From: a virus
Strand: one strand, 5' to 3'
IMG/VR virus record: IMGVR_UViG_3300037674_001028
Span: 1 to 27,906 of that record
Length of the DNA: 27,906 bases
Positions 1,022-15,592 of this stretch are shown here, one piece after another. The position numbers and the translations under genes were made by a program. Positions within the stretch are counted from its first letter, which is position 1; every line of letters starts with the position of its first letter. The notes under the pieces are model-generated. The model was given only the letters and a program-made list of their open reading frames with translations, did no database searches and was not told the origin of the DNA.

Positions 1022-1031
1022 CACAGGGAAT

Positions 1032-1063: not shown

Positions 1064-1091
1064 AATTCACCACGATCACAGGAGAAACAAA

Positions 1092-1448
1092 ATGCAATTA
1101 GTAGAAGGTGGAACGCGATTCGTTCATACGCAAGAGCGCGAAATAGAAAACGGGAAAGCAAAGACGCGCAACATTAAATGGAAACTACGATTTTGGACTC
1201 ACCAACGGTATACCAAGAAAATCGAATACGGATTTGAAGCGATTGAAATGACTTGGGAAAATGGCTACGAACAAGCCAATGGCGAGACGCGAACGAGTAG
1301 TGCCGTTTTTGAGATAGAAGAACTTTTGAGTAAGGGAGGAAACGTTAGTTGGGTGAAAGTTGATGCAGTTATGATGAACAGGTTCAAGAAAGAGATCGCT
1401 TTTTGTAGGGTAAAGGAAGTAAGATCGGTTTTGAATAGCTTACTGTAA
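1092..1448 (+). CDS. Early protein of unknown function (118 aa)
   Basis: ATG 1092 follows ACAGGAG (1078-1084), with a CACCAC box at 1068-1073. The protein is basic with predicted beta strands (TRNIKWKLRFWTHQRYTKK) and no family I can name. No promoter lies between the preceding terminator and this gene, so expression probably depends on read-through of that terminator. The gene ends just before the A-tracts of promoter copy 2. Confidence 0.7.
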   Translation: MQLVEGGTRFVHTQEREIENGKAKTRNIKWKLRFWTHQRYTKKIEYGFEAIEMTWENGYEQANGETRTSSAVFEIEELLSKGGNVSWVKVDAVMMNRFKKEIAFCRVKEVRSVLNSLL

Positions 1449-1475
1449 AAAAATAAAAAAAAGTCAAAAAAAGAC

Positions 1476-1504
1476 TTGTGTTCTGAAACGAATTGTTTTA
1501 TATT
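1476..1504 (+). promoter_or_regulatory. Early promoter copy 2
   Basis: TTGTGT (1476-1481), 17-bp spacer, TATATT (1499-1504), with A-tracts upstream from 1446. The spacer TCTGAAACGAATTGTTT is identical to that of copy 1. The leader carries AAAAAACACCAC and leads to the gene at 1551. Confidence 0.85.
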
Positions 1505-1550
1505 AGTTATAGATTTAAAAAACACCACACAATTTTACAGGAGAATCAAA

Positions 1551-1790
1551 ATGAAAATTCTACCAAAAAACATCTTCAAGACAACCGAACACGCAGAACG
1601 CGCCAAGCAAGAATACATCAATGACGTAGGATCAGACGACCCAACTACAGCACGCGTAGTCAAAGCAGTTAACAGCGTAAACTTTCACTTGCTGAAAACG
1701 ACTATGACCCTTGGTTATATTGTTGAGGTAGTAACCCGTTCGGGTGAACATATGGAATATCTTGAATCACATCTTTGGGGAAGAATCTAA
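1551..1790 (+). CDS. Small early protein of unknown function (79 aa)
   Basis: An upstream in-frame start at 1476 lies in the promoter, so I chose ATG 1551, which has ACAGGAG at 1537-1543 and a CACCAC box at 1523-1528. The protein begins MKILPKNIFKTTEHAERAKQ and has a helical N-terminal half with a beta-type C-terminal half. I do not recognise a family. It heads the unit that continues to 3104. Confidence 0.7.
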   Translation: MKILPKNIFKTTEHAERAKQEYINDVGSDDPTTARVVKAVNSVNFHLLKTTMTLGYIVEVVTRSGEHMEYLESHLWGRI

Positions 1791-1824
1791 AAACCTAACA
1801 CCACGTTAACAGGAGAAAATCATA

Positions 1825-2247
1825 ATGGTAATTTATCAGCTAAGTTTTTACGGTAGTCAACCGAAGGGTGAACCATGTCCTTCACGGTCAGCGATTGAAA
1901 AAATTGTATTAGAGGACAAGAAAGATATTTTTGTAAAATTCCTTAACGACCTGTCATTAGTTCCGTTTTCTTTAAATCCAACCAATAAGCACTTATGCCC
2001 TTGGTCAGATCACAGAACATTTTACGCAACAAAGGAACAGGCGCATCAGGCATTGCGGAAGTTTCTAAAACTCAGAGATCGCTCTACCAACCCACACCCA
2101 ACAAAAGAAACCAAAGCAGACGAGATAGACAATTCGGGCGCAAGAAAATGGGAGCGCAGTCCTAACGACGACTGTTGGGTTGATGTTGAGGATGAGGATG
2201 AGAAAAACGACTTCGAACTATGGAAAGAAAACAGAGCCAACGCATAA
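1825..2247 (+). CDS. Protein of unknown function (140 aa)
   Basis: Start ATG 1825 has ACAGGAG at 1809-1815 and a CACCAC box at 1799-1804. The first 80 residues look globular (two Cys, aromatic-rich), then a Lys/Thr linker, then a very acidic end (DVEDEDEKNDFE). Its stop TAA overlaps the next ATG (TAATG at 2245-2249), so the two are translationally coupled. No family recognised. Confidence 0.7.
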   Translation: MVIYQLSFYGSQPKGEPCPSRSAIEKIVLEDKKDIFVKFLNDLSLVPFSLNPTNKHLCPWSDHRTFYATKEQAHQALRKFLKLRDRSTNPHPTKETKADEIDNSGARKWERSPNDDCWVDVEDEDEKNDFELWKENRANA

Positions 2248-2609
2248 TGAAAACCCTAACCCAATACAACGAACAGGCGCAACGGATAATGTCAGACATC
2301 AGGTTGGCTGTTGATCGCGCAAGGGACGATGTTGATCAAATAGATGAGGATGTAGAACTGACGAATGTAACGTATCATTACGGAGAGGGGAAACCTATTC
2401 ACCAAAGAGCTACAGCACAGGAGACAGTAGAAGAGGTGGCGATAAGTAAAATTAAACAGGCACTATTAGACATGCTAACGCAAGCCAACCTAATTGTAGC
2501 GCAGACGAGACAGCGAGCAAACAACGAAACGTATTTAACAAAAAAAACAGCAAGCGCAATAGAGAAAGACATAGAAATCACAAAAATAGTCACGGAGAAT
2601 AGTCAATGA
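2247..2609 (+). CDS. Coiled-coil protein of unknown function (120 aa)
   Basis: I start this gene at ATG 2247, in the TAATG overlap with the preceding stop. An in-frame ATG at 2220 would add nine residues but has no well-spaced ribosome site. The sequence is almost entirely helical with heptad-like spacing (MSDIRLAVDRARDDVDQIDE; later ISKIKQALLDMLTQANLIVA). No catalytic motif is visible. It overlaps the next gene by ATGA at 2606-2609. Confidence 0.65.
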   Translation: MKTLTQYNEQAQRIMSDIRLAVDRARDDVDQIDEDVELTNVTYHYGEGKPIHQRATAQETVEEVAISKIKQALLDMLTQANLIVAQTRQRANNETYLTKKTASAIEKDIEITKIVTENSQ

Positions 2610-2779
2610 CCAACATTTGCCGAATACCATTTAACGATGAACCGCCAAGCGAAGAAGAAGCAGAGGAGTTTGACGAAGATTACGCATACGATGAATGGAG
2701 ACAACAACGGGATGAAAACATTGCTGTAATGAAACTACAAAACCTAATAGCGAAAGGAAAAGGCGAAAACGATGGATAG
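2606..2779 (+). CDS. Small acidic protein (57 aa)
   Basis: ATG 2606 overlaps the previous stop (ATGA). The frame ends TAG at 2777-2779, and the next gene starts inside it at 2772. The peptide is strongly acidic in the middle (PPSEEEAEEFDEDYAYDE) with a basic tail. Ribosome site GGAG at 2594-2597. Coupling on both sides supports it as a real gene. Function unknown. Confidence 0.6.
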   Translation: MTNICRIPFNDEPPSEEEAEEFDEDYAYDEWRQQRDENIAVMKLQNLIAKGKGENDG

Positions 2780-3104
2780 CCAAATGTTCAGAACATATTT
2801 ACGGAGCAAAATTGTTGACGGAGACCCGTTAAGGATAAAAAGTGACCTGCAGATTGATGATGACACTTTTGAAACGCTTGTTCAAGATGCCGTAGGAGAA
2901 TCATACACAGCACTTGAGGTGAGTCAGAAAATTGGAAGGAGTAAGGTTTGGATACACCGTTGGGGCAAGACGATAAACGTAGGGAGAAAGAGAGAAGCGG
3001 ACGGAGTATACGTCTACACGGAAAGCGAAGTCAATAAACTCAGAACAGTAGAGACGCGAACCAAAAAGATTAGAATTAAGCCAATTTTACAAAAAATTTA
3101 TTAA
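2772..3104 (+). CDS. HTH (MerR/excisionase-like) DNA-binding protein (110 aa)
   Basis: Residues about 40-85 (YTALEVSQKIGRSKVWIHRW, then a wing-like VYVYTESEVNKL) read as a winged helix-turn-helix of the MerR/Xis/AlpA type, in which a Tyr/Ser-rich helix precedes a short wing with a final 'YTESEV' helix. The N-terminal 40 residues are acidic and helical. It closes the 1551-3104 unit and lies right before the promoter of the rad52-like gene, so it may regulate phage genes. The DNA-binding call is from pattern only. Confidence 0.5.
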   Translation: MDSQMFRTYLRSKIVDGDPLRIKSDLQIDDDTFETLVQDAVGESYTALEVSQKIGRSKVWIHRWGKTINVGRKREADGVYVYTESEVNKLRTVETRTKKIRIKPILQKIY

Positions 3105-3108
3105 TGGC

Positions 3109-3137
3109 TTGTTGAAAATGACAAAAAAAACTATATT
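3109..3137 (+). promoter_or_regulatory. Early promoter copy 3, divergent member
   Basis: TTGTTG (3109-3114), 17-bp spacer, TATATT (3132-3137) followed by AG. The spacer differs from the other copies, but the leader again has AAAACACCAC before the ribosome site. The leader also contains CCCTTACAAAAC (3144-3155), found exactly in two - strand leaders. Confidence 0.7.
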
Positions 3138-3175
3138 AGCAAACCCTTACAAAACACCACAACAGGAGGATAGAA

Positions 3176-3877
3176 ATGTTTAACGAGCAAACGACACTAC
3201 AGTTAAATCAACCCCTTGACGAGAAGCACGTATCATCACGCGATCAAAATGGATTTACGCTTGATTACGTAGAAGCATGGTACGTAATTGATCGTTTCAA
3301 TCAGGTTTTCGGCCACGGAAATTGGGAGCGCGAAACCGTAGAAATGAACCTGCTTGACTCGTCAGAGCGAGGTGGAACGCACAATATACACTACTCAGCA
3401 AAATCACGTATAACCGTATGGCATGGGAAAGACCGACTCAGCTTTACGCGCAGAGAGGGTTGGGGTTATGGATCAGGCTATGGTAAAAATGTCGGGCAAG
3501 CACACGAAGGCGCAATCAAAGAAGCGGAGAGCGATGCGATGAAGCGCGCAATGATGACATTCGGTTATCAATTTGGCCTTGCGCTCTACGACAAGAAAAA
3601 GAAAAATGTTCGCGCAACAGAGCAGTGGGAAAAGTTCCACAACTACGTCAGCAAGCATATTGGCGACCCTGCGAAAAAAGACATTGCCGACAAAATTTTT
3701 GCTGAACACTATCTTGTTATGGACGAATTTATTGGCATCAATCATATCCCTAAAAATTCTATCTACGATTTGGACGAGAAGCAAATTAAATCTATCGGCA
3801 AAAAATTGCACAGTGCGCTAATGGATCACCAATCAAATGAAAACGCACGCAAAGATATTGAAGAGGGGAAATCATGA
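3176..3877 (+). CDS. Rad52/Rad22-type single-strand annealing protein
   Basis: ATG 3176 follows AGGAGG (3164-3169). The protein matches the Rad52/22 double-strand break repair family: an N-terminal strand region, WYVIDRFNQVFGHGNWERE near residues 36-54, and the helix GAIKEAESDAMKRAMMTFGY near residues 113-132 with the typical AxxDAxKRAxxxFG pattern. The family forms rings that anneal complementary single strands in phage recombination. The C-terminal 90 residues are specific to this phage and end in a charged tail. The stop overlaps the next start (ATGA). Promoter copy 3 makes it the head of an operon reaching to 7261. Confidence 0.88.
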   Translation: MFNEQTTLQLNQPLDEKHVSSRDQNGFTLDYVEAWYVIDRFNQVFGHGNWERETVEMNLLDSSERGGTHNIHYSAKSRITVWHGKDRLSFTRREGWGYGSGYGKNVGQAHEGAIKEAESDAMKRAMMTFGYQFGLALYDKKKKNVRATEQWEKFHNYVSKHIGDPAKKDIADKIFAEHYLVMDEFIGINHIPKNSIYDLDEKQIKSIGKKLHSALMDHQSNENARKDIEEGKS

Positions 3878-4047
3878 GTAGTAAAGAGCTGAATATGATC
3901 AGAGACCTTCTCGACAGGGTAGCTCCTGACGAGTTGGTTGGGGTTGTTACGGACATCCTCAGGAGTGGATTCTCTCCCTGCTCATCATATAAAGGATTCC
4001 GCTCCACTGAAGATTGGATAAAGTCTATGAGGGAAAAATTACAATGA
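3874..4047 (+). CDS. Small protein (57 aa) coupled to the rad52-like gene
   Basis: Start ATG 3874 and stop TGA 4045-4047 each overlap the neighbouring genes by ATGA. GAGGGG (3863-3868) is the ribosome site. The peptide MSSKELNMIRDLLDRVAPDE... is amphipathic and helical and ends SMREKLQ. It is too short for a confident family. Its tight coupling between the annealing protein and the winged-helix protein suggests a partner in recombination or replication (inference). Confidence 0.65.
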   Translation: MSSKELNMIRDLLDRVAPDELVGVVTDILRSGFSPCSSYKGFRSTEDWIKSMREKLQ

Positions 4048-4736
4048 CGAACAAGCAACGATTATCTGAATTTTTTGCTCACCAAGCTATGACACCGATG
4101 AAGAGTTCGGCTCGTTACATTGCTCTATATTTCCGCACTACCTACGACATAGGGATAAGCAAAAACACGATAGAAAAATACATTATAGAACTGTCAGCAG
4201 AAGGCAAGATCAGGTTAGAGGGAACGAACCGAAACCGCACAATTCAATATATACCTGAGGTTACGGTAGACAGGTCTATACCCGACAATGTGGTCACATA
4301 CGCTAATGGTGAACAGGTTACGGAAGAGACGGTAGATTGGGACACCTCTCCTACATTTATTCCTGACCCTGATTATGACGCAAAATTGCTGTGGGACTTG
4401 TGGAAAAAGGCATCTACAGCTATGGTTAATTCGTTCCCAACCTATCCGCGAGAATCTATGCAGGTTGGAGCATTACGCGACCTACACCATAAATATCAAT
4501 TAAGTATCGTCACAATAGCAACAATAGTTAAAAAAGTATTTTCAGACCCCAATACTTTTATGTGGATAATACGCAGGGGTCCACACCAACTCACGCAACG
4601 GACAAGTAAGGGGAATTTGACTTGGGCAACCGTAATGTCGTGGGACACAACATCAGGAGGAAACGCAGATGACAGAACCGACCGAAATCTCAAAAATTTT
4701 CGGAGCGAGTCTGATTGGGACGCACCCCAATTCTAA
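4044..4736 (+). CDS. Winged-helix protein, possible replication initiator-type (230 aa)
   Basis: I use ATG 4044 (ATGA overlap with the previous gene; GAGGG at 4029-4033) rather than the TTG at 4014. Residues about 2-65 look like a winged helix (SSARYIALYFRTTYDIGISK, then NTIEKYIIELSAEGKIRLEG). A linker follows, then a second helical domain at 110-215 with DPDYDAKLLWDLWKKA and FMWIIRRGPHQLTQRT. An N-terminal winged helix plus C-terminal helical domain next to a recombinase is typical of phage replication initiator or DnaD/O-like proteins, but the match is by architecture only. It overlaps the next gene by 68 bases. Confidence 0.5.
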   Translation: MTNKQRLSEFFAHQAMTPMKSSARYIALYFRTTYDIGISKNTIEKYIIELSAEGKIRLEGTNRNRTIQYIPEVTVDRSIPDNVVTYANGEQVTEETVDWDTSPTFIPDPDYDAKLLWDLWKKASTAMVNSFPTYPRESMQVGALRDLHHKYQLSIVTIATIVKKVFSDPNTFMWIIRRGPHQLTQRTSKGNLTWATVMSWDTTSGGNADDRTDRNLKNFRSESDWDAPQF

Positions 4737-5334
4737 GGATGACCGCTCCAAAAGAGAAATCCCCGTAGAAAAATCTGACCTGCCAAGATTCCGCGAATGT
4801 ATGCGCTACATGCGATCAATGTGGCAAATGCAAGAAATCACAGAGGACGACGGGCATGTATACGGTGGCCTCGTAGCAGATATCGGCATGGACAATTTCG
4901 AGTACGCATTAAAATCATATGCAAGAGACACAACATTAGAACACGGACGGCAACGTTGCGTTATAAAACCAACCGTAACTCGTATATACGTCCATCACCA
5001 AGAAATCGAAAAAAGAAAAAACGACGAAAAAGAGCGCAGGGAGAGCATCAACCAATCAAGAGAATGGCAAGAAAAAGCAGTAACATCCTCAGAGGCAAAT
5101 ACGTGGATGGAGCGAGTCAGGACAAACCAAAAAAATGCAATGATCGTAAAAGAAGAAATCCGTAAAACGTTTAACTTGAAACCAAATGACAATCGGCTAC
5201 ATATGTTGAGCAACGAAGTGTTTCGGGTAGCGCAAAAGGAAAAGGTAGGCAATAAAGGTTGGCATGAGGTGAACGTAGATCGCTACATGGAATTAGCAAA
5301 CGGGTTGGCACCACAATATATACAGGAGAAATGA
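4669..5334 (+). CDS. Unknown protein in the replication/recombination block (221 aa)
   Basis: Start ATG 4669 has AGGAGG at 4655-4660, so the 68-base out-of-frame overlap with the upstream gene looks genuine. Residues 36-112 form a compact helical segment (LPRFRECMRYMRSMWQMQEI; MDNFEYALKSYARDTT; VIKPTVTRIYVHHQ). The middle is a long charged coiled coil. Position directly after an initiator-like gene would suit a helicase loader, but no Walker A motif is present, so an AAA+ loader is excluded and the role stays open. Confidence 0.6.
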   Translation: MTEPTEISKIFGASLIGTHPNSKDDRSKREIPVEKSDLPRFRECMRYMRSMWQMQEITEDDGHVYGGLVADIGMDNFEYALKSYARDTTLEHGRQRCVIKPTVTRIYVHHQEIEKRKNDEKERRESINQSREWQEKAVTSSEANTWMERVRTNQKNAMIVKEEIRKTFNLKPNDNRLHMLSNEVFRVAQKEKVGNKGWHEVNVDRYMELANGLAPQYIQEK

Positions 5335-5335
5335 A

Positions 5336-5614
5336 ATGATAGCTATAGATTTTCTGAAAGAATCAACAAGAAACGACATAATAGAACTGATTAAAAATTG
5401 CGGATCACCGACCAAAGCCTCAGAACATCTTGGCGTAGACCCGAAGGTTTTTTGCAGGTATGCGAACAAGAAGCGGATAAAAACAAGCAGAGAAACCGTA
5501 GAAAACAAGTCGTATACAGTGTATTGCCGTAAGTCATTTTGCATGAACAGACCTGCATCATCAACGGGGATCTGCTTTGCATGTTACGCTAAAGATTGCG
5601 GAGGTCTAAAATGA
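5336..5614 (+). CDS. HTH plus zinc-finger-like small protein (92 aa)
   Basis: ATG 5336 follows ACAGGAG (5322-5328), with a CACCAC box at 5309-5314 inside the preceding coding region. Residues about 14-49 (SPTKASEHLGVDPKVFCRYA) read as a helix-turn-helix. The C-terminal third has Cys64, Cys69, Cys80, Cys83 and Cys88, a CxxxxC...CxxC pattern suited to one zinc ion. HTH plus zinc ribbon in a small phage protein suggests a DNA-binding regulator or nuclease accessory. It overlaps the nuclease-like gene by ATGA. Confidence 0.6.
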   Translation: MIAIDFLKESTRNDIIELIKNCGSPTKASEHLGVDPKVFCRYANKKRIKTSRETVENKSYTVYCRKSFCMNRPASSTGICFACYAKDCGGLK

Positions 5615-6234
5615 GAGATCAAACCCAAACACAAAACAGAGCGAGTATGGGAGATTATAGAACTCCAAATGACGCAAAACAACAATTAGGAGTAGACACA
5701 GAGTTGGGTAAAGAAAGAATTAGAGCGCAACAAGAAGTGATTCGGAGAATGGCGAAATACTCAGGGGCAAGTAGTGTCTACGAAATCCCTACAAAAACAT
5801 CAAGGGTAGATGCTCTTCTGCACGTAAACAATACATTATACGTCATGGAGATCAAAACGCGAAACAGCAAAATAACGAAAGGTGAAGATGGTCGTTTTAG
5901 GTTGCATGACAGATACGGTGATAATAATGATTTTAGGTTCGTTCCACGTGAAACCTACATGATTTCAAATTCTAAAATCATAGAGGGGCAACGGTGCGCA
6001 GAAATATTGTCTGCTCAATACCTTGTAGTTGTTTACGCGATACACTCTGACAATATCGCTTATTTTAATTGTACAAAACTACAATCGGGACAAGATTATA
6101 CGCTAAAAACAATTCAAACAAGGCAACCCTACACTAACGGGACGGAAACCGATATTATGGCTATGCTACCATTAGATCGCATGAGGGTATTGAACGAAAA
6201 AAAAGAAACCCGATTAATCAATGACGCTTGTTAG
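5611..6234 (+). CDS. PD-(D/E)XK nuclease-fold protein (207 aa)
   Basis: ATG 5611 has GGAGG at 5600-5604 and overlaps the preceding stop; the in-frame codon at 5596 is inside that ribosome site. A helix (residues 35-51) is followed by SRVDALLHVNNTLYVMEIKT (64-83). This gives Asp67, Glu80 and Lys82 in the D-(x)n-E-x-K arrangement of the restriction-endonuclease-like fold. The second half has strands that would complete the fold. Likely a DNA nuclease, or a family member used for DNA processing. The target is unknown. It is directly coupled to the PLP enzyme. Confidence 0.6.
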   Translation: MRDQTQTQNRASMGDYRTPNDAKQQLGVDTELGKERIRAQQEVIRRMAKYSGASSVYEIPTKTSRVDALLHVNNTLYVMEIKTRNSKITKGEDGRFRLHDRYGDNNDFRFVPRETYMISNSKIIEGQRCAEILSAQYLVVVYAIHSDNIAYFNCTKLQSGQDYTLKTIQTRQPYTNGTETDIMAMLPLDRMRVLNEKKETRLINDAC

Positions 6235-7261
6235 GCAGTATCACGAAGATCCGTATCACAGATCCTATAATTGGGAAAATCATTTATTCGACCTTACGCC
6301 CGTAGAAGAAGTATTAGGAATAAATTTCAAGCGAGAGGATAAATTCGCTCCATTAGGATACGGCAATATAAACGGGTCTAAGGCACGACAATGTTTACAC
6401 CTAATGAATAGATGGGTAGAAGCATCGCCAAGCATGGAAGGAGTAGTTTCGGGTTCCGTTGTTGGCTCTCCTCAACATCCATTCATCTCGTCTATGTGTA
6501 AACACTTCAACAAACGATGCGTAATTTTTATTGGAGCAAAAAACTACTTGGAACACAATTATGCACGACACGCACATCGTCTTGGAGCAGAAATCCACGT
6601 ATCCAAAATAGGCTACGCGAAGGCTCTGCAAAAATCATGTGAGCAATTCCAAAAAAAAGAGCAATTAAAAGGCAATGATTGGAAGATGCTTGAGCTAAAC
6701 ATTACCTTATTAGCAAAACATGGATTCCAAAAAATAGAAGCATTCCACAGAATAGGAGCAGAGCAGGTTCGTAATATACCCGATGACATTGAAACACTGA
6801 TTGTCCCTTCGGGTAGTTGCAATAGTGTAGTTTCTATCTTGTATGGAATCTCACTGTATCCACCGAAAGGTTTGAAGAATATAATATTGATGGGGATCGG
6901 TAATAACGGATCTAAGAATCTTGGCTACATACCCGAAAGGCTAAAGGCGATTAGTCTACAGACAGGTCGATCAGTAAATCAATATTTCGACTATAGCGAA
7001 TTGTCCAATAAAAATTTACTTGGAAGTTTTGTCGGCAAGCGAGGAGAGTATAAAGTTAGGCATTATGATCTTAATGGAACGGGTTATTGTAAATATGAAA
7101 CTTTAATGCCGTTTACCTACGGAGATATTGTCTTTCACCCACGCTACGAAGGTAAAATAATGAATTATATACAAGAAAACATAAAAGAAATAAAAAAATA
7201 TTGGAACAGAAAAACCCTATTTTGGATAGTGGGAGGGCAAGTTTCTGACACTCTTGCATAA
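6221..7261 (+). CDS. Fold-type II PLP-dependent enzyme (tryptophan-synthase-beta/ACC-deaminase group)
   Basis: The order of motifs fits this superfamily. INFKRED (34-40) with NGSKARQ (51-57) corresponds to the 'KRED...GNKxRK' segment, which makes Lys54 the likely Schiff-base lysine. SGSVVGSPQHPFISSM takes the place of the 'SNHxxQ' helix. LIVPSGSCNSVVSILYG matches the glycine-rich phosphate-binding loop. At 346 residues it has usual length. Such enzymes do beta- or gamma-elimination or replacement on amino acids such as serine or cysteine. It overlaps the nuclease-like gene by 14 bases and its own ribosome site is weak, so it is probably coupled. In a phage it may make or tailor an amino acid used in DNA modification (inference; see findings). 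Confidence 0.68.
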   Translation: MTLVRQYHEDPYHRSYNWENHLFDLTPVEEVLGINFKREDKFAPLGYGNINGSKARQCLHLMNRWVEASPSMEGVVSGSVVGSPQHPFISSMCKHFNKRCVIFIGAKNYLEHNYARHAHRLGAEIHVSKIGYAKALQKSCEQFQKKEQLKGNDWKMLELNITLLAKHGFQKIEAFHRIGAEQVRNIPDDIETLIVPSGSCNSVVSILYGISLYPPKGLKNIILMGIGNNGSKNLGYIPERLKAISLQTGRSVNQYFDYSELSNKNLLGSFVGKRGEYKVRHYDLNGTGYCKYETLMPFTYGDIVFHPRYEGKIMNYIQENIKEIKKYWNRKTLFWIVGGQVSDTLA

Positions 7262-7289
7262 TTATTTTTAAAAAAAACAAAAAAAACAC

Positions 7290-7318
7290 TTGTGTTCTGA
7301 AACGAAATGATTTATAAT
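7290..7318 (+). promoter_or_regulatory. Early promoter copy 4
   Basis: TTGTGT (7290-7295), 17-bp spacer, TATAAT (7313-7318), with A-tracts from 7269. The leader carries a CACCAC box at 7338-7343. Confidence 0.88.
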
Positions 7319-7363
7319 TAGTTTAAGTTTAAAAACACACCACTACTCTACAGGAGAAAAAAG

Positions 7364-7744
7364 ATGACAGCTACTTCCGCAAACGCAACCACAGCAGAAC
7401 AAAAAAAATACGCATTAGACGAATTATGGGACTCACGCGAACCTTCACTTAGCGGATCGTTTGCTGAGATGGTAGAAGAGTTTGACGCGATGCAAATAGC
7501 TTGTGGCGAAAAGAAAACATTTTTTCTGCGCCCAACCGAAATCCTCTCTAACGCATTAGGCTTGAAAGCTGATTTACGCGACCCACGAAACGGATTACAA
7601 GAATTGTTTACACCAAGTCAAAAAGGGAAATTGACAAGATTCTGTAAAAAATGGGCAAAACTCAACGAGCATTGGGGTAGTTATATAGCATACTACGATA
7701 CTACTCCCGTCCGTCAAGAATTCTTAAGAGCGAAAGCAAGCTAA
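7364..7744 (+). CDS. Protein of unknown function (126 aa)
   Basis: ATG 7364 has ACAGGAG at 7350-7356. A flexible Ala/Thr-rich N-terminus is followed by a globular part (LSGSFAEMVEEFDAMQIACG; LFTPSQKGKLTRFCKKWAKL). No recognised domain. It lies under promoter copy 4 and ends at a hairpin lacking a T-tract (7758-7784) before the DUF932 gene. Confidence 0.7.
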   Translation: MTATSANATTAEQKKYALDELWDSREPSLSGSFAEMVEEFDAMQIACGEKKTFFLRPTEILSNALGLKADLRDPRNGLQELFTPSQKGKLTRFCKKWAKLNEHWGSYIAYYDTTPVRQEFLRAKAS

Positions 7745-7757
7745 CAACAACAAACGC

Positions 7758-7784
7758 AGGGAGAGGGGATTCGCCTCTCTCCCT
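7758..7784 (+). other. Strong intercistronic hairpin without T-tract
   Basis: AGGGAGAGGGG (7758-7768) pairs with CCTCTCTCCCT (7774-7784) around ATTCG: 11 bp with one wobble. It resembles the terminators at 12277 and 13072 in sequence but is followed by CACACCACACAATAAGGAG, not T. It may be an RNA processing or stabilising element that separates the amounts of the two flanking proteins. Confidence 0.6.
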
Positions 7785-8928: not shown

Positions 8929-9597
8929 ATGCCTCGTTTATCAATTTGGAGTTTTATCCTGTATAACGGAGGAGATTGGAAGGCTAATTGCACGAAATAT
9001 CTACACAAGGCAATCGGACTAAGCTCTATTTCAACCACATCAGAATATGATGAATCCGCGCAAGAAACCAAACACTTCTTGACAGAATTAACAGCAGATT
9101 ATCTTATCCTTGAAAAATTGGAAAATATTGGAATAACGACATTAGAGCAGATCAAACGGGCAGAGATGCACGTAGCCGAATACTCACATTACAGAGAAAT
9201 AATTCTCAATAATATTAAACCTGAGTTTGGAGTTGACGCGAAATTCTCTGATGCCGTTATGGGAAAAATAACTGACTCCGTTATCACGATACTGCAAAAT
9301 GCTATACGGGGATTAATCCCCATCAAAGCAGAGGGTGGCGTTTTCAAGGCCACCAAAATAATGGAGATGTATTTCATTTTTGAGGAAGGCACCGAAAGCA
9401 AACTTGAGCATTTCCGAGATAGGTTTAATTATTCTTCAATTTTTATACATTTTGATACAAGAAAACTTTTCAAGCGAAGAGACGTATTAGACAAGCTACG
9501 GGAACAAATGCCGTTACAGCAAAACATTTACGCCCATCAGAATAGCGCGAATCTGTTTTTACCCATCAAGAAACTTGTGGATATTTTTAATGTCTAA
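8929..9597 (+). CDS. Protein of unknown function (222 aa)
   Basis: ATG 8929 follows AGGGAG (8915-8920). The protein is of mixed helix and strand type, with a central helical region (SDAVMGKITDSVITILQNAI) and a later MEMYFIFEEGTESKLEHFRD. No catalytic motif or membrane segment. It ends next to promoter copy 5. I cannot assign a family. Confidence 0.7.
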   Translation: MPRLSIWSFILYNGGDWKANCTKYLHKAIGLSSISTTSEYDESAQETKHFLTELTADYLILEKLENIGITTLEQIKRAEMHVAEYSHYREIILNNIKPEFGVDAKFSDAVMGKITDSVITILQNAIRGLIPIKAEGGVFKATKIMEMYFIFEEGTESKLEHFRDRFNYSSIFIHFDTRKLFKRRDVLDKLREQMPLQQNIYAHQNSANLFLPIKKLVDIFNV

Positions 9598-9626
9598 AAA
9601 AAAATAAAAAAAACACAAAAAAACAC

Positions 9627-9655
9627 TTGTGTTCTGTTGCATATTGTTTTATAAT
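9627..9655 (+). promoter_or_regulatory. Early promoter copy 5
   Basis: TTGTGT (9627-9632), 17-bp spacer, TATAAT (9650-9655), with A-tracts from 9597. The middle of the spacer (TTGCATA) differs from copies 1, 2 and 4 while its ends are conserved. CACCAC box at 9675-9680. Confidence 0.88.
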
Positions 9656-9700
9656 TAGTTCAGGTTCAAAAACACACCACTACTTTACAGGAGATTCAAA

Positions 9701-9973
9701 ATGAAACAATTCATCAAAACCTACTTCTTAAAGCAAGACGAAGAAACTCGCGAACAAATCATGCTGTCATGGGATCTTGATTATAACGACAATAATGTTG
9801 ACGACATTGACATGGCTCGCTTGATGATGGCACACGATTATTCACTGCACACAGAAGGCTCAATCAGATACGCTTACGTAGGGACTCCTGACATAGTTAA
9901 AAATTGGGAAAGGTTTGTTAATAACGATCCTTCAGCAATGTATTTTAATAGCAAACTTGAAAGAGTTGCATAA
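9701..9973 (+). CDS. Small acidic early protein (90 aa)
   Basis: ATG 9701 with ACAGGAG at 9687-9693. The protein is acidic (YNDNNVDDIDMARLMMAHDY) with aromatic residues and no recognised domain. First gene of the unit running from promoter copy 5 to the Gp157-like gene. Confidence 0.7.
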   Translation: MKQFIKTYFLKQDEETREQIMLSWDLDYNDNNVDDIDMARLMMAHDYSLHTEGSIRYAYVGTPDIVKNWERFVNNDPSAMYFNSKLERVA

Positions 9974-10016
9974 AGCAATATCACACCACAACACCACAAT
10001 GAATAGGAGAAACAAA

Positions 10017-10286
10017 GTGAATACCGATAAGATAGCAGAACTTGGCGCACGCTACATTGCCCACCGTTACCATGATGAGAAATTTGCCACCAAAGAAGAA
10101 GTAGTTAAGGCACTTGACAGTTTCCTCGTCAAATACGCCACAGGATCAACTACCGAAGAAGCAGAGATTGACTTAGGGTTCCTCGTTCATAAGGCTTGGG
10201 TTCGGGCATACGAAAAATACCGTGACTTCATAGGTCATATCGTCCTCTCGCCATTCGTAAAACGCAACGAAGAAGGGAAGGCATAA
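10017..10286 (+). CDS. Small protein with GTG start (89 aa)
   Basis: I choose GTG 10017 because AGGAG lies at 10005-10009, the same AGGAGAAACAAA-start arrangement as at 1092. The in-frame ATG at 9999 has no ribosome site and would put the AGGAG inside the gene. Two CACCAC boxes precede it (9984-9989, 9992-9997). The product is mostly helical (KIAELGARYIAHRYHDEKFA; WVRAYEKYRDFIG). Function unknown. Confidence 0.65.
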   Translation: MNTDKIAELGARYIAHRYHDEKFATKEEVVKALDSFLVKYATGSTTEEAEIDLGFLVHKAWVRAYEKYRDFIGHIVLSPFVKRNEEGKA

Positions 10287-10287
10287 A

Positions 10288-10476
10288 ATGACAGACTTAG
10301 AAATGGCTACCAAGATTCTCGTTGGGATGGTGTCGAACGCAACGGAACACGACATCAATATCAGGAAGCGTCGGATGGTCATAGACGCGTACGAATTTGT
10401 TGACCTGTTGAAAGCACAGGCGTCAGTAAGACGAGCGGACATGGACGATTTTATTAGCAAACAGAAGGGAGAATGA
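10288..10476 (+). CDS. Small protein of unknown function (62 aa)
   Basis: Starts two bases after the preceding stop, with AGAAGGGAAGG just upstream. Basic helical peptide (MTDLEMATKILVGMVSNATE... ISKQKGE). Coupled to its neighbours on both sides. No family recognised. Confidence 0.65.
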   Translation: MTDLEMATKILVGMVSNATEHDINIRKRRMVIDAYEFVDLLKAQASVRRADMDDFISKQKGE

Positions 10477-10478
10477 AA

Positions 10479-10556
10479 ATGGATTGGGATAATATTATAG
10501 ATCACGGAATGATATTAATATCAGTTGTGTTTCTTTTAGCCTACGCCTTATATTAG
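10479..10556 (+). CDS. Single-pass membrane micropeptide (25 aa)
   Basis: ATG 10479 has AGGGAGA at 10466-10472 and follows the previous stop by two bases. The peptide is MDWDNIIDHG followed by one hydrophobic helix (MILISVVFLLAYALY). It ends in the loop-proximal part of a perfect hairpin (10542-10561). A tiny one-TM peptide in an early operon could be an inhibitor or membrane-directed takeover factor. That is inference. Confidence 0.5.
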   Translation: MDWDNIIDHGMILISVVFLLAYALY

Positions 10557-10712
10557 GCGTAAGCATGGAATCTTGGGGAAGGTTTCCATGTTAAACACCG
10601 TAGTTTGGGGGCTGATTTACATCACACTGTCGGATCGTCCAACAGTGGAGAACGGAACTTATACTGTTCAGGTTCAGGTTCCAATCTCAGGGGTTTTGTA
10701 GGTCAGCCCCCT
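10540..10712 (+). ncRNA. Candidate structured RNA: three successive hairpin domains
   Basis: Domain A: TACGCCT (10542-10548) with AGGCGTA (10555-10561), extendable past one mismatch. Domain B: CATGGAA (10564-10570) with TTCCATG (10584-10590). Domain C: GGGGGCTGA (10607-10615) with TCAGCCCCC (10703-10711) closing a region that itself holds CACTGT/ACAGTG (10625-10630/10642-10647, with an inner GGA/TCC) and GGAAC/GTTCC (10654-10658/10678-10682). All the main stems are perfect. It lies about 22 bases before the ribosome site of the Gp157-like gene, so it may be a cis-regulatory leader, or a separate small RNA. I know no matching RNA family. Confidence 0.5.
10588..10701 (+). CDS. Possible 37-aa reading frame inside the structured RNA
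   Basis: ATG 10588 with GGGGAAGG at 10575-10582 encodes MLNTVVWGLIYITLSDRPTV and 17 more residues. Its ribosome site is in the loop of domain B and its ATG is in the stem, so translation would depend on opening that hairpin. It may be a regulated leader peptide, or chance within a structured RNA. Confidence 0.25.
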   Translation: MLNTVVWGLIYITLSDRPTVENGTYTVQVQVPISGVL

Positions 10713-10742
10713 ATGCACACACCATAATCAACAGGGAGAAAA

Positions 10743-11294
10743 ATGATGGAACAATCAGACAACAACAACGCACTCGACGAGCATTTCGATTACACAAGGG
10801 CAGAGCGGAGCCTTGAGGAGATTAGGAAATTACAGGAACAGAAAGATCAAATCGTCGAACACGCAAAAAGTGAAATTGAACGAATCAACCAATGGATGGA
10901 AAGAGAAACTAAGAAACGCAATAAAACACAACAATATCACAAACAAAACCTAACTGCATTCCTTGACCGAAAAGATCGGAAAACAATTAAGTTAATTAAT
11001 GGAGTAATTAAATCTACAAAGGGCAGACAAAAAATAGAGATAATAGATGAAGAAATTATTGACAACAAATTTATGACCGAAACGATTTCACGGACACCTA
11101 ACAAGAAATTGATCTTACAACACATACAGGAGTGCGGAGAGATACCCGATGGAACTGACATCATAGAAGGAGAAAAAACATATACCATACGCGCATACAC
11201 CAAAAAAAGCGAGCCTGAGTTTTTCGCTGATACTGATGCCGATGAGGAGTTTCAAATCCCATCGGACGAAGAGCTTGCGCCAAAAATAACATAA
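10743..11294 (+). CDS. Gp157/Gam-like protein (183 aa)
   Basis: ATG 10743 (or 10746) follows AGGGAG (10733-10738). Residues 15-75 form a long charged coiled coil (RAERSLEEIRKLQEQKDQIV). Then comes a small domain with IKLINGVIKSTKGRQKIEII, a pattern resembling 'P..K..I..HI...G.IPDGTDI' and YTIR, as in siphovirus Gp157 and the Mu Gam-type host nuclease inhibitors. Those proteins bind DNA ends or protect phage DNA. With the Rad52-like protein this suggests a recombination and DNA-protection set. An acidic tail (FFADTDADEEF) ends the protein. Gp157 versus Gam cannot be separated by eye. Confidence 0.6.
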   Translation: MMEQSDNNNALDEHFDYTRAERSLEEIRKLQEQKDQIVEHAKSEIERINQWMERETKKRNKTQQYHKQNLTAFLDRKDRKTIKLINGVIKSTKGRQKIEIIDEEIIDNKFMTETISRTPNKKLILQHIQECGEIPDGTDIIEGEKTYTIRAYTKKSEPEFFADTDADEEFQIPSDEELAPKIT

Positions 11295-11580
11295 CGTCAA
11301 AATCAATTATGCAGGGGAATCAGTTTTTGCGCGTTTCTCATTTTGGCGCAAGGTGATTTCATATTTCACCTCTCCTACTGAAAACGACTACTACGCATAC
11401 GTGATTAACGTCATTAATTTTGACAGCGGATTAAACGAGTGAACTCCGTTCCCGTCACTGTAAACTACAAAGAAAATAGAGCTTTGTTGGTAGCGTGTCT
11501 GTATAATTGGTTTTTTTTAATTTTTTTACCCTACAATATTAGTGGTTTTCAATTTTTTTTTAAAAAACACAAAAAAACAC
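11295..11580 (+). other. Non-coding stretch with several hairpins before promoter copy 6
   Basis: No convincing gene is present. GTCAAAATCAAT (11296-11307) can pair with ATTAATTTTGAC (11413-11424) with one mismatch. It would enclose TTGCGC/GCGCAA and AGGTGA/TCACCT hairpins (within about 11328-11375) and a short ACGT/ACGT pairing. AGTGA (11438-11442) pairs with TCACT (11455-11459). The 3' part, from about 11512, is T- and A-rich and runs into the A-tracts of promoter copy 6. It could be a structured 3' UTR, a small RNA or a protein-binding region. Confidence 0.35.
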
Positions 11581-11609
11581 TTGTGTTCTGTTTCGTTTCG
11601 TTTTATACT
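11581..11609 (+). promoter_or_regulatory. Early promoter copy 6
   Basis: TTGTGT (11581-11586), 17-bp spacer, TATACT (11604-11609), with T- and A-tracts upstream. The leader has a CACCAC box at 11629-11634 and the ribosome site ACGGGAG. Confidence 0.85.
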
Positions 11610-11654
11610 TAGTTCAGTTGTTAAAATACACCACTACTTTACGGGAGATTCAAA

Positions 11655-12269
11655 ATGGCAAGTTTAATCAAAAACATCACGGCAAGCATCGAACACTGCG
11701 AACCAATAAAAGTTGAAGCCACCGAAGGCCACACATACGAGAGCTTGATGCGCTTCACTTCTTTCTCTGCCCCTCGCGAAGAATACACGCATAGAAGCAA
11801 GCATCACTACACCAATGTTGGACACGTCAGCGTTGATAGCTTGGAATTTAAAACCGCAAATGCCTTGGGGGCAGAGAAAGAAGTAAAGAATATTAACGAA
11901 GCATTGGTTGATTTGTGTAACAAAATATTCCGCGAATGCAATGGCGTTAGGTTAGAAAACGGAGACAATGTAGACTTCATCGCTAATGGACCTTGCCGTA
12001 GCTTGAGCGTAGGTGACATAATCAAGATAAGGTATTTCGTAGAAGGATACACAAGGGCAAGAACAAAGATCTTCGCAGTAGCCGATTTCGGTTGGGACGT
12101 TATAGAAGAAATCGACCCAAACCAAGACGGCTTTGACGAGATGTATTCCTTAGAAGATCCTACGGACGCGATGGAAAAAATGGGATACGAAGAATGCAAC
12201 GCATGGTGGAGCAACAACGAAGATAAGGCCGTAGCAAGCCATAAGGCAGTAGCCAAAATAGAGATCTAA
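11655..12269 (+). CDS. Protein of unknown function (204 aa)
   Basis: ATG 11655 after ACGGGAG (11641-11647). The N-terminal half is globular with strands (HYTNVGHVSVDSLEFK). Around residues 110-125, CRSLSVGDIIKIRYFVEG resembles the 'SVGDVI' strand of small phage YodL-like domains. The C-terminal third is acidic with Trp and Asn (NAWWSNNEDKAV). Not enough for a family call. It is transcribed alone between promoter copy 6 and a strong terminator, so it may be made in large amount. Confidence 0.7.
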   Translation: MASLIKNITASIEHCEPIKVEATEGHTYESLMRFTSFSAPREEYTHRSKHHYTNVGHVSVDSLEFKTANALGAEKEVKNINEALVDLCNKIFRECNGVRLENGDNVDFIANGPCRSLSVGDIIKIRYFVEGYTRARTKIFAVADFGWDVIEEIDPNQDGFDEMYSLEDPTDAMEKMGYEECNAWWSNNEDKAVASHKAVAKIEI

Positions 12270-12276: not shown

Positions 12277-12313
12277 CAGGGAGGGAGCTTCGGTTCCTTC
12301 CCTGTTTTTTTTT
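12277..12313 (+). terminator. Intrinsic terminator with UUCG tetraloop
   Basis: CAGGGAGGGAGC (12277-12288) pairs with GTTCCTTCCCTG (12293-12304) around TTCG, followed by nine T (12305-12313). The C(UUCG)G loop and long T-run make this a very strong terminator. Confidence 0.93.
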
Positions 12314-12323
12314 AAAAAAAGAC

Positions 12324-12352
12324 TTGTTTTTTGTTTTGAATTGTTTTATAAT
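12324..12352 (+). promoter_or_regulatory. Early promoter copy 7
   Basis: TTGTTT (12324-12329), 17-bp spacer, TATAAT (12347-12352), starting only 10 bases after the T-run of the preceding terminator. CACCAC box at 12372-12377. Confidence 0.85.
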
Positions 12353-12397
12353 TAGTTCAGCTGTTAAAATACACCACTCACTTACAGGAGATTTAAA

Positions 12398-13051
12398 ATG
12401 AACAATTACTCAAATTATTCAGGCGCATCAAATTGGGCATACTACAGAGGACGACCAAGCACCCCCGAATCACGCGCACGTAAAGAAGCAAAACGACGCA
12501 AAAACTTACGCACCTTAGTTTCGTTTATGCGACAGAATTTTTCTTCTGTTTTACGCGACCTTAAATTCGCTTCTAAGGACAACTCCTTTATTACAGATAT
12601 CCGCAGTAAAATGATTAACAAGCCTCATTACTTTTTACCTGCAGGTTTAAGCGAAAAACAAATCAGCGCAATAACTCGTTGCGCAGAGGGACGTAGGAAG
12701 TATGAACAGAAATTAGAGCAGAGCGCACGTGACTTTACGGGCAAAATTCCAAGTGAGTTAGAGAACAGTCGCGTTACAGTAGAAGGCGAAATCCTTAGTA
12801 TGAAAATGAAAGATACCGCTTACGGTGAAACTATGAAAATCATACTTAAATGTGGAGACGCTGAAAATGGCTTTTGGAAAATTTATGGAAGTATGCCGAT
12901 CATTAAGGAAGAGGAAGAGCAATACGGCAACGAGAAACTTGCAGATGTCGGTGTCTCAATAAAATTTGACGCTAAAATTAAAATCAGCGACAATGACGAA
13001 TCTTTCGGTTTCTTCTCACGCCCAACTAAAGGACAATTAGCTGTAGCTTAA
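12398..13051 (+). CDS. Protein with C-terminal OB-fold-like domain (217 aa)
   Basis: ATG 12398 after ACAGGAG (12384-12390). Residues 1-40 are Ser/Tyr/Arg-rich and basic. The middle is helical. Residues about 125-215 are strand-rich: RVTVEGEILSMKMKDTAYGE, MKIILKC, GFWKIYGSMPI, VGVSIKFDAKI and SFGFFSRPTKG. This layout, with a 'FGFFSRPTK' end, recurs in phage and plasmid proteins and looks like an OB-type barrel that could bind nucleic acid. No catalytic residues. It is the last + strand gene and overlaps the convergent gene by 15 bases. Confidence 0.6.
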   Translation: MNNYSNYSGASNWAYYRGRPSTPESRARKEAKRRKNLRTLVSFMRQNFSSVLRDLKFASKDNSFITDIRSKMINKPHYFLPAGLSEKQISAITRCAEGRRKYEQKLEQSARDFTGKIPSELENSRVTVEGEILSMKMKDTAYGETMKIILKCGDAENGFWKIYGSMPIIKEEEEQYGNEKLADVGVSIKFDAKIKISDNDESFGFFSRPTKGQLAVA

Positions 13052-14206
13052 AGTTTTTTTACGAGCTTTACGGGGAGAGGGTTTCGGCCTTCTCCCCTTT
13101 TTTGTTGCCGTTTCCGCAGGGACTCCTTCGTATCTATCAGAGATCAAGCCTAATGTATGCTGTCTTCCCGTCAACCTGTATAGGTTTTGCTTGTAGCTCG
13201 TTACGCCTTTATTGGCAGGGTATGATTCGGGTCTGAGTACTGTCGGTAAATATTTTTTCCTTGCTTCCCAAAATATTGAAAAGTCTACATTCTTAAAATA
13301 CGGTGATGCTTCTGTTTTGACTAATCTGTCATACGCCATATCTGCGTAAACGTTTGGATACCTTCTACTTTTGCGGAACCACGACTTGAAATTGCATAAT
13401 TGCGTTTCAAGAGTAAACCGACTAACCCATCGCTCTACCTCTGTCCCCTTGAAACGTTCTAACGCTTCTGCGTAAAGAGCTTCCATCTCTTCGCCAAGCA
13501 TGTCCATAACGGGTGAAGTGTGCAATGTCTGACCTTTAACGTAAGAGGGATTAGATGAATGCTCGTCAAGGTCATCTCTGCCTAATAACTTAGCCATACC
13601 GCTTCTGTGTGACTTGCTTCCTCCGTGATCTTCCGCAAAAAACGAACTGCAATCTATATTCATACCTGCTATGAAAAGGTACTCAAGGTAGGAAAACGAA
13701 CTTAGTCGTCCAAACGTGTAAAACTTCTCTCCCGTCTTACCTTCGTAAACTCTCTTCCAAATAGCGTCAAAGTTTTGGAACTTATCTCCGCAGTAGTGGC
13801 TTGTGAAGAATTCTTCTTGTGTTTTCCCTTTTAGGCATTTTCTGTAGTGCGCGATAGAATCGGCTATACTATTTCTGTAATGCCTTCTATCCATATCAAT
13901 TATCAATACCTGCCAACGAACCTTACCGTTGCCTACAGGCTCAAAATACCATTCCTTGAATTTCTGTTCGTCAAAGCTCGCTACACTTGGAAACGCAGAC
14001 ATAATATAGTAGCTCATCGTTGGAGACTGCGTTAAACCGTTAAGAAAGCAAAACCAAAGCGAATCCTCTATGCTCCAATGTAGTTTTTCTTGAAGAAATG
14101 GTATATACGCATAAACGAACCCTGCCATAGAGCGATATTTCAAATGGAAAAAATAAGCATCCCAAAATATTTGCCTACGATTCTCAGGTAGCCTATAGTC
14201 TATCAT
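13037..14206 (-). CDS. Probable amino acid:DNA transferase-like protein (alpha-glutamyl/putrescinyl thymine pyrophosphorylase group)
   Basis: I start at ATG 14206, just after the preceding stop, with GAAGAG upstream; a TTG at 14218 would add four residues. The 389-residue protein is mostly helical. Two dense motif blocks stand out: EDHGGSKSHRSGMAKLLGRD (192-211) and TLETQLCNFKSW followed by RRYPNVYADMAYDR (266-294). The second resembles the ETxLCxxKSWxRxxRRYPNVY-type segment that I associate with phage thymine-hypermodification transferases, which replace an activated 5-hydroxymethyl-dU pyrophosphate with an amino acid. The recognition is from memory of the family. The C-terminal tail is very basic (KKGRRPKPSPRKARKK) and may bind DNA. 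It could instead be a phage protein of unknown function. Confidence 0.5.
   Translation of the reverse strand: MIDYRLPENRRQIFWDAYFFHLKYRSMAGFVYAYIPFLQEKLHWSIEDSLWFCFLNGLTQSPTMSYYIMSAFPSVASFDEQKFKEWYFEPVGNGKVRWQVLIIDMDRRHYRNSIADSIAHYRKCLKGKTQEEFFTSHYCGDKFQNFDAIWKRVYEGKTGEKFYTFGRLSSFSYLEYLFIAGMNIDCSSFFAEDHGGSKSHRSGMAKLLGRDDLDEHSSNPSYVKGQTLHTSPVMDMLGEEMEALYAEALERFKGTEVERWVSRFTLETQLCNFKSWFRKSRRYPNVYADMAYDRLVKTEASPYFKNVDFSIFWEARKKYLPTVLRPESYPANKGVTSYKQNLYRLTGRQHTLGLISDRYEGVPAETATKKGRRPKPSPRKARKKTLSYS
13072..13103 (+). terminator. Terminator of the + strand, inside the convergent gene
   Basis: GGGGAGAGGGT (13072-13082) pairs with GCCTTCTCCCC (13087-13097) around TTCG, followed by six T (13098-13103). 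It lies within the coding region of the - strand gene that ends at 13037 and encodes part of that protein's basic tail. In the - direction there is no T-run, so it should act only on + transcripts. Confidence 0.88.
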
Positions 14207-14429: not shown

Positions 14430-14705
14430 TTATAATATTTCCGTGACCTTATCCCTTAATTCAGTTGCTTCCTTTGCCAACTTTACTACCGCTTGCCCGA
14501 ACGTTTCCATTTCTTCGGGTGATATTTGATTGTCAGCGTAAACCAACTCCCACTGTTCGCCTACATCCTTTAATTGCTCTATTACATCATTTAATTCCCC
14601 AAAGGCATCTTTCGCCTTGGTTATTGTTTTTGCCTTGGCGATAACTCCACCTACTCCACCAACCCCGATTGCCCCTGCGACTGCCGTTGCCCATCCAAAA
14701 TCCAT
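14430..14705 (-). CDS. Small one-TM protein with coiled coil (91 aa)
   Basis: Start ATG 14705 overlaps the stop of the phosphoesterase gene (TAATG) and has AAGGAGG nearby. Residues 4-24 form a Gly/Ala-rich hydrophobic helix (WATAVAGAIGVGGVGGVIA), followed by a basic hinge (KAKTITKAK) and a long helical, mostly acidic part. The layout of a short N-terminal TM and a cytoplasmic coiled coil suits a membrane-associated accessory protein, possibly in lysis. No direct evidence for that. Confidence 0.6.
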   Translation of the reverse strand: MDFGWATAVAGAIGVGGVGGVIAKAKTITKAKDAFGELNDVIEQLKDVGEQWELVYADNQISPEEMETFGQAVVKLAKEATELRDKVTEIL

Positions 14706-15592
14706 TATGATAACCTCCTTGGGGATATTTTTACCCCGTATGTATTAGTTTTCTTTTTGCTCCCTTTGCGCGTCACTCGCTCAAAATCTAACCAAACACC
14801 CCCTTGAGGGCGAGGGGATAATCCTTTTTCTGCCCACCATCCGTCGCCCGTGTATTCGTTTTTATACGTTGGGAGTTGTATGTGCCACTGAGTGTCCTGA
14901 TAATCCTTTCCCCACGTGCTAATTCGCTCTCTACGGAGTTCCATGACCCAAGACTCATGAATGTGCCCACTGACCACGATATCAGCGTCAGGCAGGTAAA
15001 CAGCTCGTCGTGAGGTCTGTATCGTGCCTTTGGTGACAGCACCGCCTCCTCCGCTTCCGTGAGTATAAGCAATTTTAGTTGTTGAGTCAGGAATTTCAGA
15101 GCTTTCTCTCATCATTGACGAATACAAAACCCAACCACTGTAAGGCATTTTGATGATTTTGTTTTTGGTTTTGTCGGCCAACCTGTCAATACAAAGCGAA
15201 ATCAAATCAACCTCTGCAAATCGTAGTATTGAAGTTTCATGGTTTCCTGATGCCCAACCTGCAATATTTGCGGAAAATGGCTCTAAAAAGTTGACCGTAT
15301 CCTCTACGAGAGCATTCAGGTAGTCGTTGCGTTGGTATTCTTTACGTGTTGCGCCTTTGCTCCCACGCGGATCACGTTTTCCTTGCATAGCGTCAAACCA
15401 ATCACCGCAAAAAAATATGCTCGCGCCCTGATCTACAGCTTGTTGTAGATGAGAACGGAGCATATTTCTATTGCAATGCTCAGAATCAAAATGTTGATCA
15501 GAGCAGAGCAATAACGAGCCTTTGCTACCACTGAGCATTCTCTCCCTAATCCTGAGAGCTTTTGGCCCGACCTGTTCGTATTTATTTTTCAA
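14705..15592 (-). CDS. Calcineurin-like metallophosphoesterase (295 aa)
   Basis: The five metal-binding blocks are present: D32-x-H34 in CSDQHFD, GDWFD (63-67), GNHE (116-119), His178 in YTHGSG, and GHIH (209-212). These residues hold two metal ions in the phosphoesterase superfamily (nucleases, phosphodiesterases, phosphatases). The frame opens at a TTG (15592), four bases after the preceding stop. An in-frame ATG at 15538 with AGGGAG just upstream is a serious alternative that would remove 18 residues before the first motif. The substrate is unknown. The 3' end of the gene encodes the ribosome site of the next gene. Confidence 0.85.
   Translation of the reverse strand: MKNKYEQVGPKALRIRERMLSGSKGSLLLCSDQHFDSEHCNRNMLRSHLQQAVDQGASIFFCGDWFDAMQGKRDPRGSKGATRKEYQRNDYLNALVEDTVNFLEPFSANIAGWASGNHETSILRFAEVDLISLCIDRLADKTKNKIIKMPYSGWVLYSSMMRESSEIPDSTTKIAYTHGSGGGGAVTKGTIQTSRRAVYLPDADIVVSGHIHESWVMELRRERISTWGKDYQDTQWHIQLPTYKNEYTGDGWWAEKGLSPRPQGGVWLDFERVTRKGSKKKTNTYGVKISPRRLS

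Follow-up and report, generated by a model that had tools for sequence, protein, structure and literature searches.

Our analysis suggests, with high probability, that the open reading frame (ORF) at positions 13037-14206 of the window (the whole IMG/VR virus fragment analysed here, 27,906 bases) encodes an amino acid:DNA transferase (AADT) of the PF18724/aGPT-Pplase2 family, and that this enzyme represents one step of a four-enzyme thymidine hypermodification pathway, with genes scattered over the phage genome. Very probably, the encoded enzyme links an amino acid to modified thymines in the DNA of the phage itself. The window encodes both the transferase and a PLP-dependent enzyme, and the enzymes presumed to generate and activate the modification site are encoded on a contig that overlaps it, so that the phage DNA is probably disguised from the restriction enzymes of bacteria.

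Family and fold of the transferase

The ORF reported in the initial annotation is real, and its strand, absent there, can now be given as minus: it starts with an ATG at position 14206, ends with a stop codon at 13037-13039 and encodes 389 aa. The same annotation placed the protein in the alpha-glutamyl/putrescinyl thymine pyrophosphorylase group, of which clade 2 is now called amino acid:DNA transferase, and proposed a profile search. In Pfam, the protein matches a single family, ADDT 'Amino acid:DNA transferase' (PF18724), with E=4.1e-11 and 43.5 bits, above the curated cut-off of 26.2. Its PHROG match is phrog_3271 (E=7.8e-50), the family of the Vi01 transferase, which also includes the relatives from Montesquieu, Zemanar and Cr30. 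NCBIfam has no model for either the transferase or the PLP enzyme. A tblastn search with the transferase found matches in 372 phage records, every one below 60% identity: 34% for mycobacteriophages and about 24-30% for Vi01-like phages of Vibrio and enterobacteria. A match in a Glutamicibacter phage (33%) is itself labelled 'alpha-glutamyl/putrescinyl thymine pyrophosphorylase clade 2'. The window transferase is a further member of a known family, and profile, predicted fold and gene neighbourhood agree on this membership.

The two motif blocks noticed earlier (residues 192-211 and 266-294) turned out to be the two densest runs of invariant positions in an alignment of 12 relatives of the transferase and can be regarded as family signatures. 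The first contains the motif GGSKSHRSG (aa 195-203; minus strand, 13598-13624), in which G196, S197, S199, H200, R201 and G203 are invariant, with further invariant residues, G209 and D214, in the same region. The second, TLETQLCNFKSWFRKSRRYPNVYADMAYDR (aa 265-294; minus strand, 13325-13414), has 17 invariant columns: T265, E267, L270, C271, K274, S275, W276, R278, R281, R282, Y283, P284, V286, Y287, D289, M290 and R294. Its core, E-T-x-L-C-x-x-K-S...Y-P, recurs at residues 243-262 of gp51 from phage M6, the counterpart in the window transferase being ETQLCNFKSWFRKSRRYPNVYADM, and on inspection of the sequence strings the motif is visible in about 50 of 58 transferase loci.

The AlphaFold2 model built from the alignment of 12 relatives (mean pLDDT 84, pTM 0.85) is nearly all helix, in keeping with the helical character attributed to the protein before. 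Among solved folds, gp46/PUGT of phage PaMx11, a 5-phosphomethyl-dU glycinyltransferase (PDB 8z2m/8z2n), matches best, the 8z2m entry giving a VIA-align Z of 16.9 with an rmsd of 3.6 over 256 aligned residues; because mostly helical models can reach a background Z near 14, this value is not decisive by itself, but it agrees with the Pfam assignment. Foldseek also paired the model with PUGT, at a probability of 1.00 but an E of only 0.047. Although the overall fold is common to both, the window protein is about 100 residues longer, and identity over the structural alignment is 13%. The Pfam and fold results are connected through M6 gp51, which is a member of PF18724 (E=1.4e-46), with the core motif described above, and a sequence homologue of PUGT (E=1.2e-90). 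A PDB sequence search with the transferase and its 12-row profile found no credible relative, and hhalign of the transferase profile against M6 gp51 gave 2% with a single sequence on the M6 side. The sequence link alone is thus weak, and the tie to the solved transferases rests on Pfam, fold and motif together. The comparison also bears on the substrate: the initial annotation named a pyrophosphorylated form, whereas 5-phosphomethyl-dU is given as the substrate of the best-matching enzyme of known structure.

The PUGT entries stand clear of the next fold families: DUF2419 queuine salvage proteins reach a Z of about 9, and 8-oxoguanine glycosylases of the HhH type one of about 8. Could the protein instead be a DNA glycosylase-like enzyme of base excision? 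Second-tier folds do include HhH 8-oxoguanine and 3-methyladenine glycosylases along with DUF2419 (Z 5-9), and the record of mycobacteriophage Prince annotates a relative as 'DNA glycosylase'. However, the PUGT score is about twice that of the next family, PF18724 is matched above its cut-off, and base excision would have no obvious use for the conserved operon or for fusions with the kinase, TET and PLP enzymes found in relatives (see below). We therefore consider this reading extremely unlikely and retain the assignment as a transferase.

The very basic C-terminal tail, pointed out in the initial annotation, is indeed present (the C-terminal 29 residues include 10 K/R and a single D/E), yet it loses its value as functional evidence. 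It has pLDDT under 50, is absent from the 12 aligned relatives and is encoded across a terminator-like hairpin of the converging plus-strand gene (13072-13097; plus strand, 11-bp stem, 4-base loop and T-run). This hairpin lies just past the stop of the plus-strand gene at 12398-13051 and overlaps the transferase codons for aa ~370-379; the two convergent genes, 12398-13051 (+) and 13037-14206 (-), themselves overlap by 15 bases. A role of the tail as a DNA-binding element was rejected on account of the terminator overlap and the lack of conservation; most plausibly, the tail simply results from that overlap.

Partner genes in the window and on an overlapping contig

The initial annotation noted that the kinase and the hydroxymethyl-dUMP synthase are missing from the window, but it overlooked a pathway partner inside it. 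The gene at 6221-7261 (plus strand) encodes a PLP-dependent enzyme of fold type II that matches phrog_3650 (E=1.3e-68), the family of the Vi01 enzyme. Its homologues occur in 342 phage records, mostly at 33-40% identity, largely in Vi01-like phages that also have the transferase, and no mycobacteriophage is among the organisms named in these matches. The Schiff-base lysine, K54, is invariant, including in Vi01, Montesquieu and M6. Profile matches include ACC deaminase and D-cysteine desulfhydrase. The enzyme is a homologue of the Ackermannviridae PLP enzyme and a probable decarboxylase of the DNA-linked amino acid.

A scan with the PLP protein led to a second contig, IMGVR_UViG_3300032073_000301, which overlaps window positions 1-7769 at 99.92% identity and reaches ~14 kb beyond position 1. 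The two are joined by identity and not in one assembly; about 42 kb are known in total, and the far ends leave a gap. This contig has TerL-, portal- and capsid-like genes (named by eye), a ParB-like gene (9159-9944) and two genes of direct relevance here. The first, at 9931-10821, encodes a TET/JBP dioxygenase (PF12851, E=8.7e-10, 38.5 bits against a cut-off of 34.9) with the metal-binding residues H165-x-D167, H216 and R229. The second, at 13590-14063, encodes a 157-aa P-loop kinase with the Walker A motif GMQGTGKT. The kinase has no match to HMUDK (PF18748) at E up to 0.1; it does match PHROG 800 (E=5e-6), the family of M6 gp54, which in turn matches HMUDK (PF18748) at 7.7e-18. A profile of the operon kinases finds, weakly in both cases, M6 gp54 and the Vi01 P-loop kinase that adjoins the synthase. 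The 157-aa protein therefore probably works like a 5-hmdU DNA kinase, but it is not filed in PF18748.

PHROG 800 also holds a mycobacteriophage gene annotated as 'terminase small subunit'; the loci concerned are L039 (2875-3465) and L048 (21686-22249). Because the family includes M6 gp54, an HMUDK match, the label is doubtful and probably represents a misannotation in M6-like and mycobacteriophage genomes.

Within the window itself, PF12851, PF18723, PF00303 and PF00145 all remained without a match. A thymidylate-synthase homologue and HMUDK_hel are absent from both the window and the overlapping contig, although, the genome being incomplete, a synthase could lie in the missing part. The search of the rest of the genome, proposed earlier for a kinase and a thymidylate-synthase homologue, thus had a mixed outcome: a kinase-like gene was found, whereas the known ~42 kb contain no thymidylate-synthase homologue and a TET/JBP gene instead. 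The two findings named in the initial annotation as refuting it, a missing profile match and missing partner genes, are thus both contradicted: PF18724 is matched, and the overlapping contig of this phage has a kinase-like and a TET/JBP gene. The route to 5-hydroxymethyl-U in this phage is probably oxidation of T within DNA, with no hydroxymethyl-dUMP synthase involved.

Seen in the orientation of the window, the minus strand carries TET, kinase and AADT along with the structural genes, and the plus strand carries PLP. The TET, kinase and AADT genes are apart from one another, with the PLP gene in the plus-strand early region, unlike the arrangement in relatives, and such scattering might mean that they are decayed or non-functional remnants. 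However, all four reading frames are intact and retain the AADT motifs, PLP K54, the TET HxD at 165-167 and the kinase Walker A. Moreover, the Vi01 genes are likewise scattered, yet Vi01 DNA is modified (PMC6449724). Decay is therefore very unlikely.

Several other features of the window may be recorded. Six copies of a ~100-bp module (463-578, 1447-1559, 7269-7369, 9595-9704, 11562-11664 and 12313-12407; 77-86% identity to the first copy) lie directly upstream of plus-strand genes, and an extra copy is on the overlapping contig. The copies combine a TTGTGT-17 bp-TATAAT-like promoter with a conserved leader and, ahead of the ATG, a GGAG sequence, and the module looks like a repeated early promoter-leader cassette. 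A generic promoter scan gave no result above chance. The early region also encodes a Rad52/22 annealing protein (3176-3877, plus strand; PF04098, E=2e-29) and a Mu Gam-like DNA-end protection protein (10743-11294, plus strand; PHROG 2205). The strand that encodes the transferase also has, three genes upstream of it, a gene for a calcineurin-like metallophosphoesterase (14705-15592, minus strand; PF00149, PHROG 7339 'DNA repair exonuclease').

Gene neighbourhoods and front ends in relatives

To place the four genes in context, local profile searches were run over 90 AADT loci, 58 of which remained after removal of near-copies. TET, PLP, AADT and kinase are all present in 28 of the 58 non-redundant loci (window included), and 15 more have TET, AADT and kinase without PLP. 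Wherever another non-redundant locus contains TET, AADT and kinase (43 of 43), these genes share a strand and lie within 6 kb. Single-ORF fusions of AADT were also found among the 58 loci, five with the kinase, one with TET and one with PLP. Over the loci examined, fusions occur in L070, L075, L076, L081, L083, L091, L100 and L102 (kinase), L078 (TET) and L073 (PLP). In the AADT tree, the window protein groups with L049/L050 (support 100/99); its closest relatives, L049-L052, have 59% identity and the gene order TET-AADT-PLP-kinase. TET-PLP-AADT-kinase operons of uncultivated viral contigs (L002, L005, L010, L016, L050 and others) feature the same four families as the window phage, but they are contiguous, whereas the window phage genes are dispersed; in total, dozens of viral contigs have the four genes as one operon, in some cases with fusions. 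Actinophages provide a further parallel in the ParB-TET-AADT-kinase cassettes of Zemanar, Fortunato and Rhodococcus phage Tonitrus, the TET-aGPT-Pplase2-kinase combination having been named in the latter (PMC11955845). Common to these cassettes and the window phage are TET/JBP, AADT (34% identity), a P-loop kinase and a ParB-like gene by the terminase. Unlike the window phage, mycobacteriophage records revealed no PLP enzyme, and their product is therefore expected to keep the carboxyl group.

These neighbourhoods also bear on the target base. The four enzymes might act on cytosine, with a C5-methyltransferase producing 5-methylcytosine, TET converting it to 5-hydroxymethylcytosine, and the kinase, transferase and PLP enzyme decorating the latter. 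In L004 (IMGVR_UViG_3300022407_003850) and L061, a C5-cytosine methyltransferase adjoins TET-AADT-kinase, so that the target base is not certain, and phage Melnitz (L042) has an HhaI-like methylase-TET-kinase arrangement; these three loci may represent a cytosine version of amino-acid hypermodification. On the other hand, no C5-methyltransferase is present in the window or the overlapping contig, and one was found in only 1 of 18 records searched and 1 of 47 non-redundant TET loci. Furthermore, homologues of the PLP enzyme and the transferase occur in Vi01 and M6, phages with modified thymidines (PMC6449724, PMC6336734, PMC9476957). For the window phage we regard the cytosine version as unlikely and keep thymine as the target.

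Among the non-redundant AADT loci, 47 of 58 have TET and six have the synthase/HMUDK_hel front end, but none has both (Fisher p=1.1e-5; the sequences are related, and the p value is a guide only). Whole contigs show the same division: HMUDK_hel and thymidylate synthase are both missing from 15 contigs of the TET-type set, while those of the other type (n=4) have HMUDK_hel in all four cases and synthase in three. Complete phages are divided in the same way, Vi01, M6 and Montesquieu having synthase and HMUDK_hel without TET, and Zemanar and Margaery having TET and neither of the other two. In the AADT-bearing records examined, L036, L048, L021, L112 and L114 have HMUDK_hel (PF18723) and a thymidylate-synthase homologue together, never with TET/JBP. 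We traced no literature source for this mutual exclusion. At least four changes of the synthase label are required on the AADT tree, which suggests repeated exchange of front ends, although some of the branches involved are long and call for caution. Tentatively, and conceding that it is rather improbable, we propose that a transferase-kinase-PLP module joins two mutually exclusive front ends, TET or hydroxymethyl-dUMP synthase, with HMUDK_hel specific to the replication route. If so, HMUDK_hel (aGPT-Pplase1) might, for example, select sites or restore thymine where 5-hydroxymethyl-U has been placed everywhere. In phage PhiW-14, the mechanism of thymine restoration is recorded as unknown (PMC5977210).

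A different combination is seen in Caulobacter phage Cr30 (L043, 4664-6801), in which an ADDT gene (PF18724, E=1.3e-52) adjoins a weak match (E=8.5e-4) to a TET-associated glycosyltransferase; TET and kinase genes lie close by. A mixed amino-acid and sugar modification is possible in this phage.

Predicted pathway and its product

The observations comprise the genes and the families to which they belong, the predicted fold and the operon conserved in relatives; the pathway assembled from them is inferred in its reactions, order, amino acid and product. A TET/JBP-type Fe(II)/2-oxoglutarate dioxygenase would first oxidise selected thymines in replicated DNA to 5-hydroxymethyluracil, and the P-loop kinase would then phosphorylate the hydroxymethyl group; a 5hmdU DNA kinase is known to act on DNA (PMC6449724). 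Next, the transferase would swap the phosphate for a free amino acid, and its DNA-glycosylase-like helical fold would suit binding of a flipped base. Finally, the PLP enzyme (6221-7261) would decarboxylate the amino acid once it is attached, so that a cationic aminoalkyl group remains. PLP enzymes of the thymidine hypermodification pathway are reportedly decarboxylases, as Lee et al. 2022 are said to have found. The product would serve to block restriction endonucleases.

Known systems help to narrow down the product. Vi01 DNA carries 5-(2-aminoethoxy)methyl-dU, M6 DNA carries 5-(2-aminoethyl)-dU, and such modified DNA protects against restriction (PMC6449724). The gene set of Ackermannviridae includes a hydroxymethyltransferase, two kinases, a PLP enzyme and two aGPT-Pplases (PMC6336734), and that of M6-like phages has also been given (PMC9476957). 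In sequence, the window pair is homologous to the transferase (Vi01_199) and PLP enzyme (Vi01_182) of Vi01 (phrog_3271 and phrog_3650; 38% identity for PLP), and the pathway genes are scattered in both phages. The front ends differ: Vi01 has a thymidylate-synthase homologue and HMUDK_hel but no TET, whereas the window phage has TET and, in its known part, neither of the others. In M6, unlike the window phage as known, the front end is of the thymidylate-synthase/HMUDK_hel type and a radical-SAM gene is present. We predict decarboxylated (aminoalkyl) thymidines, perhaps as in Vi01; because both the transferase and the PLP enzyme are homologous to those of Vi01, an aminoethoxymethyl-type thymidine is by analogy the likeliest product.

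The combination of a TET front end with a Vi01-like PLP finish was found in none of the named phage records searched. In viral contigs, a TET/JBP front end with a Vi01-like PLP step is common, and such combinations may have been covered before in the metagenomic survey by Lee et al. 2022; we therefore claim no new variant. Enzymes of this kind could be used to place amines at chosen thymines in DNA. The exclusion between TET and the synthase/HMUDK_hel front end bears, as a hypothesis, on the unexplained role of HMUDK_hel. An anonymous ORF and several 'hypothetical' neighbours become a readable pathway, which predicts a specific base in the DNA of an uncultivated phage.
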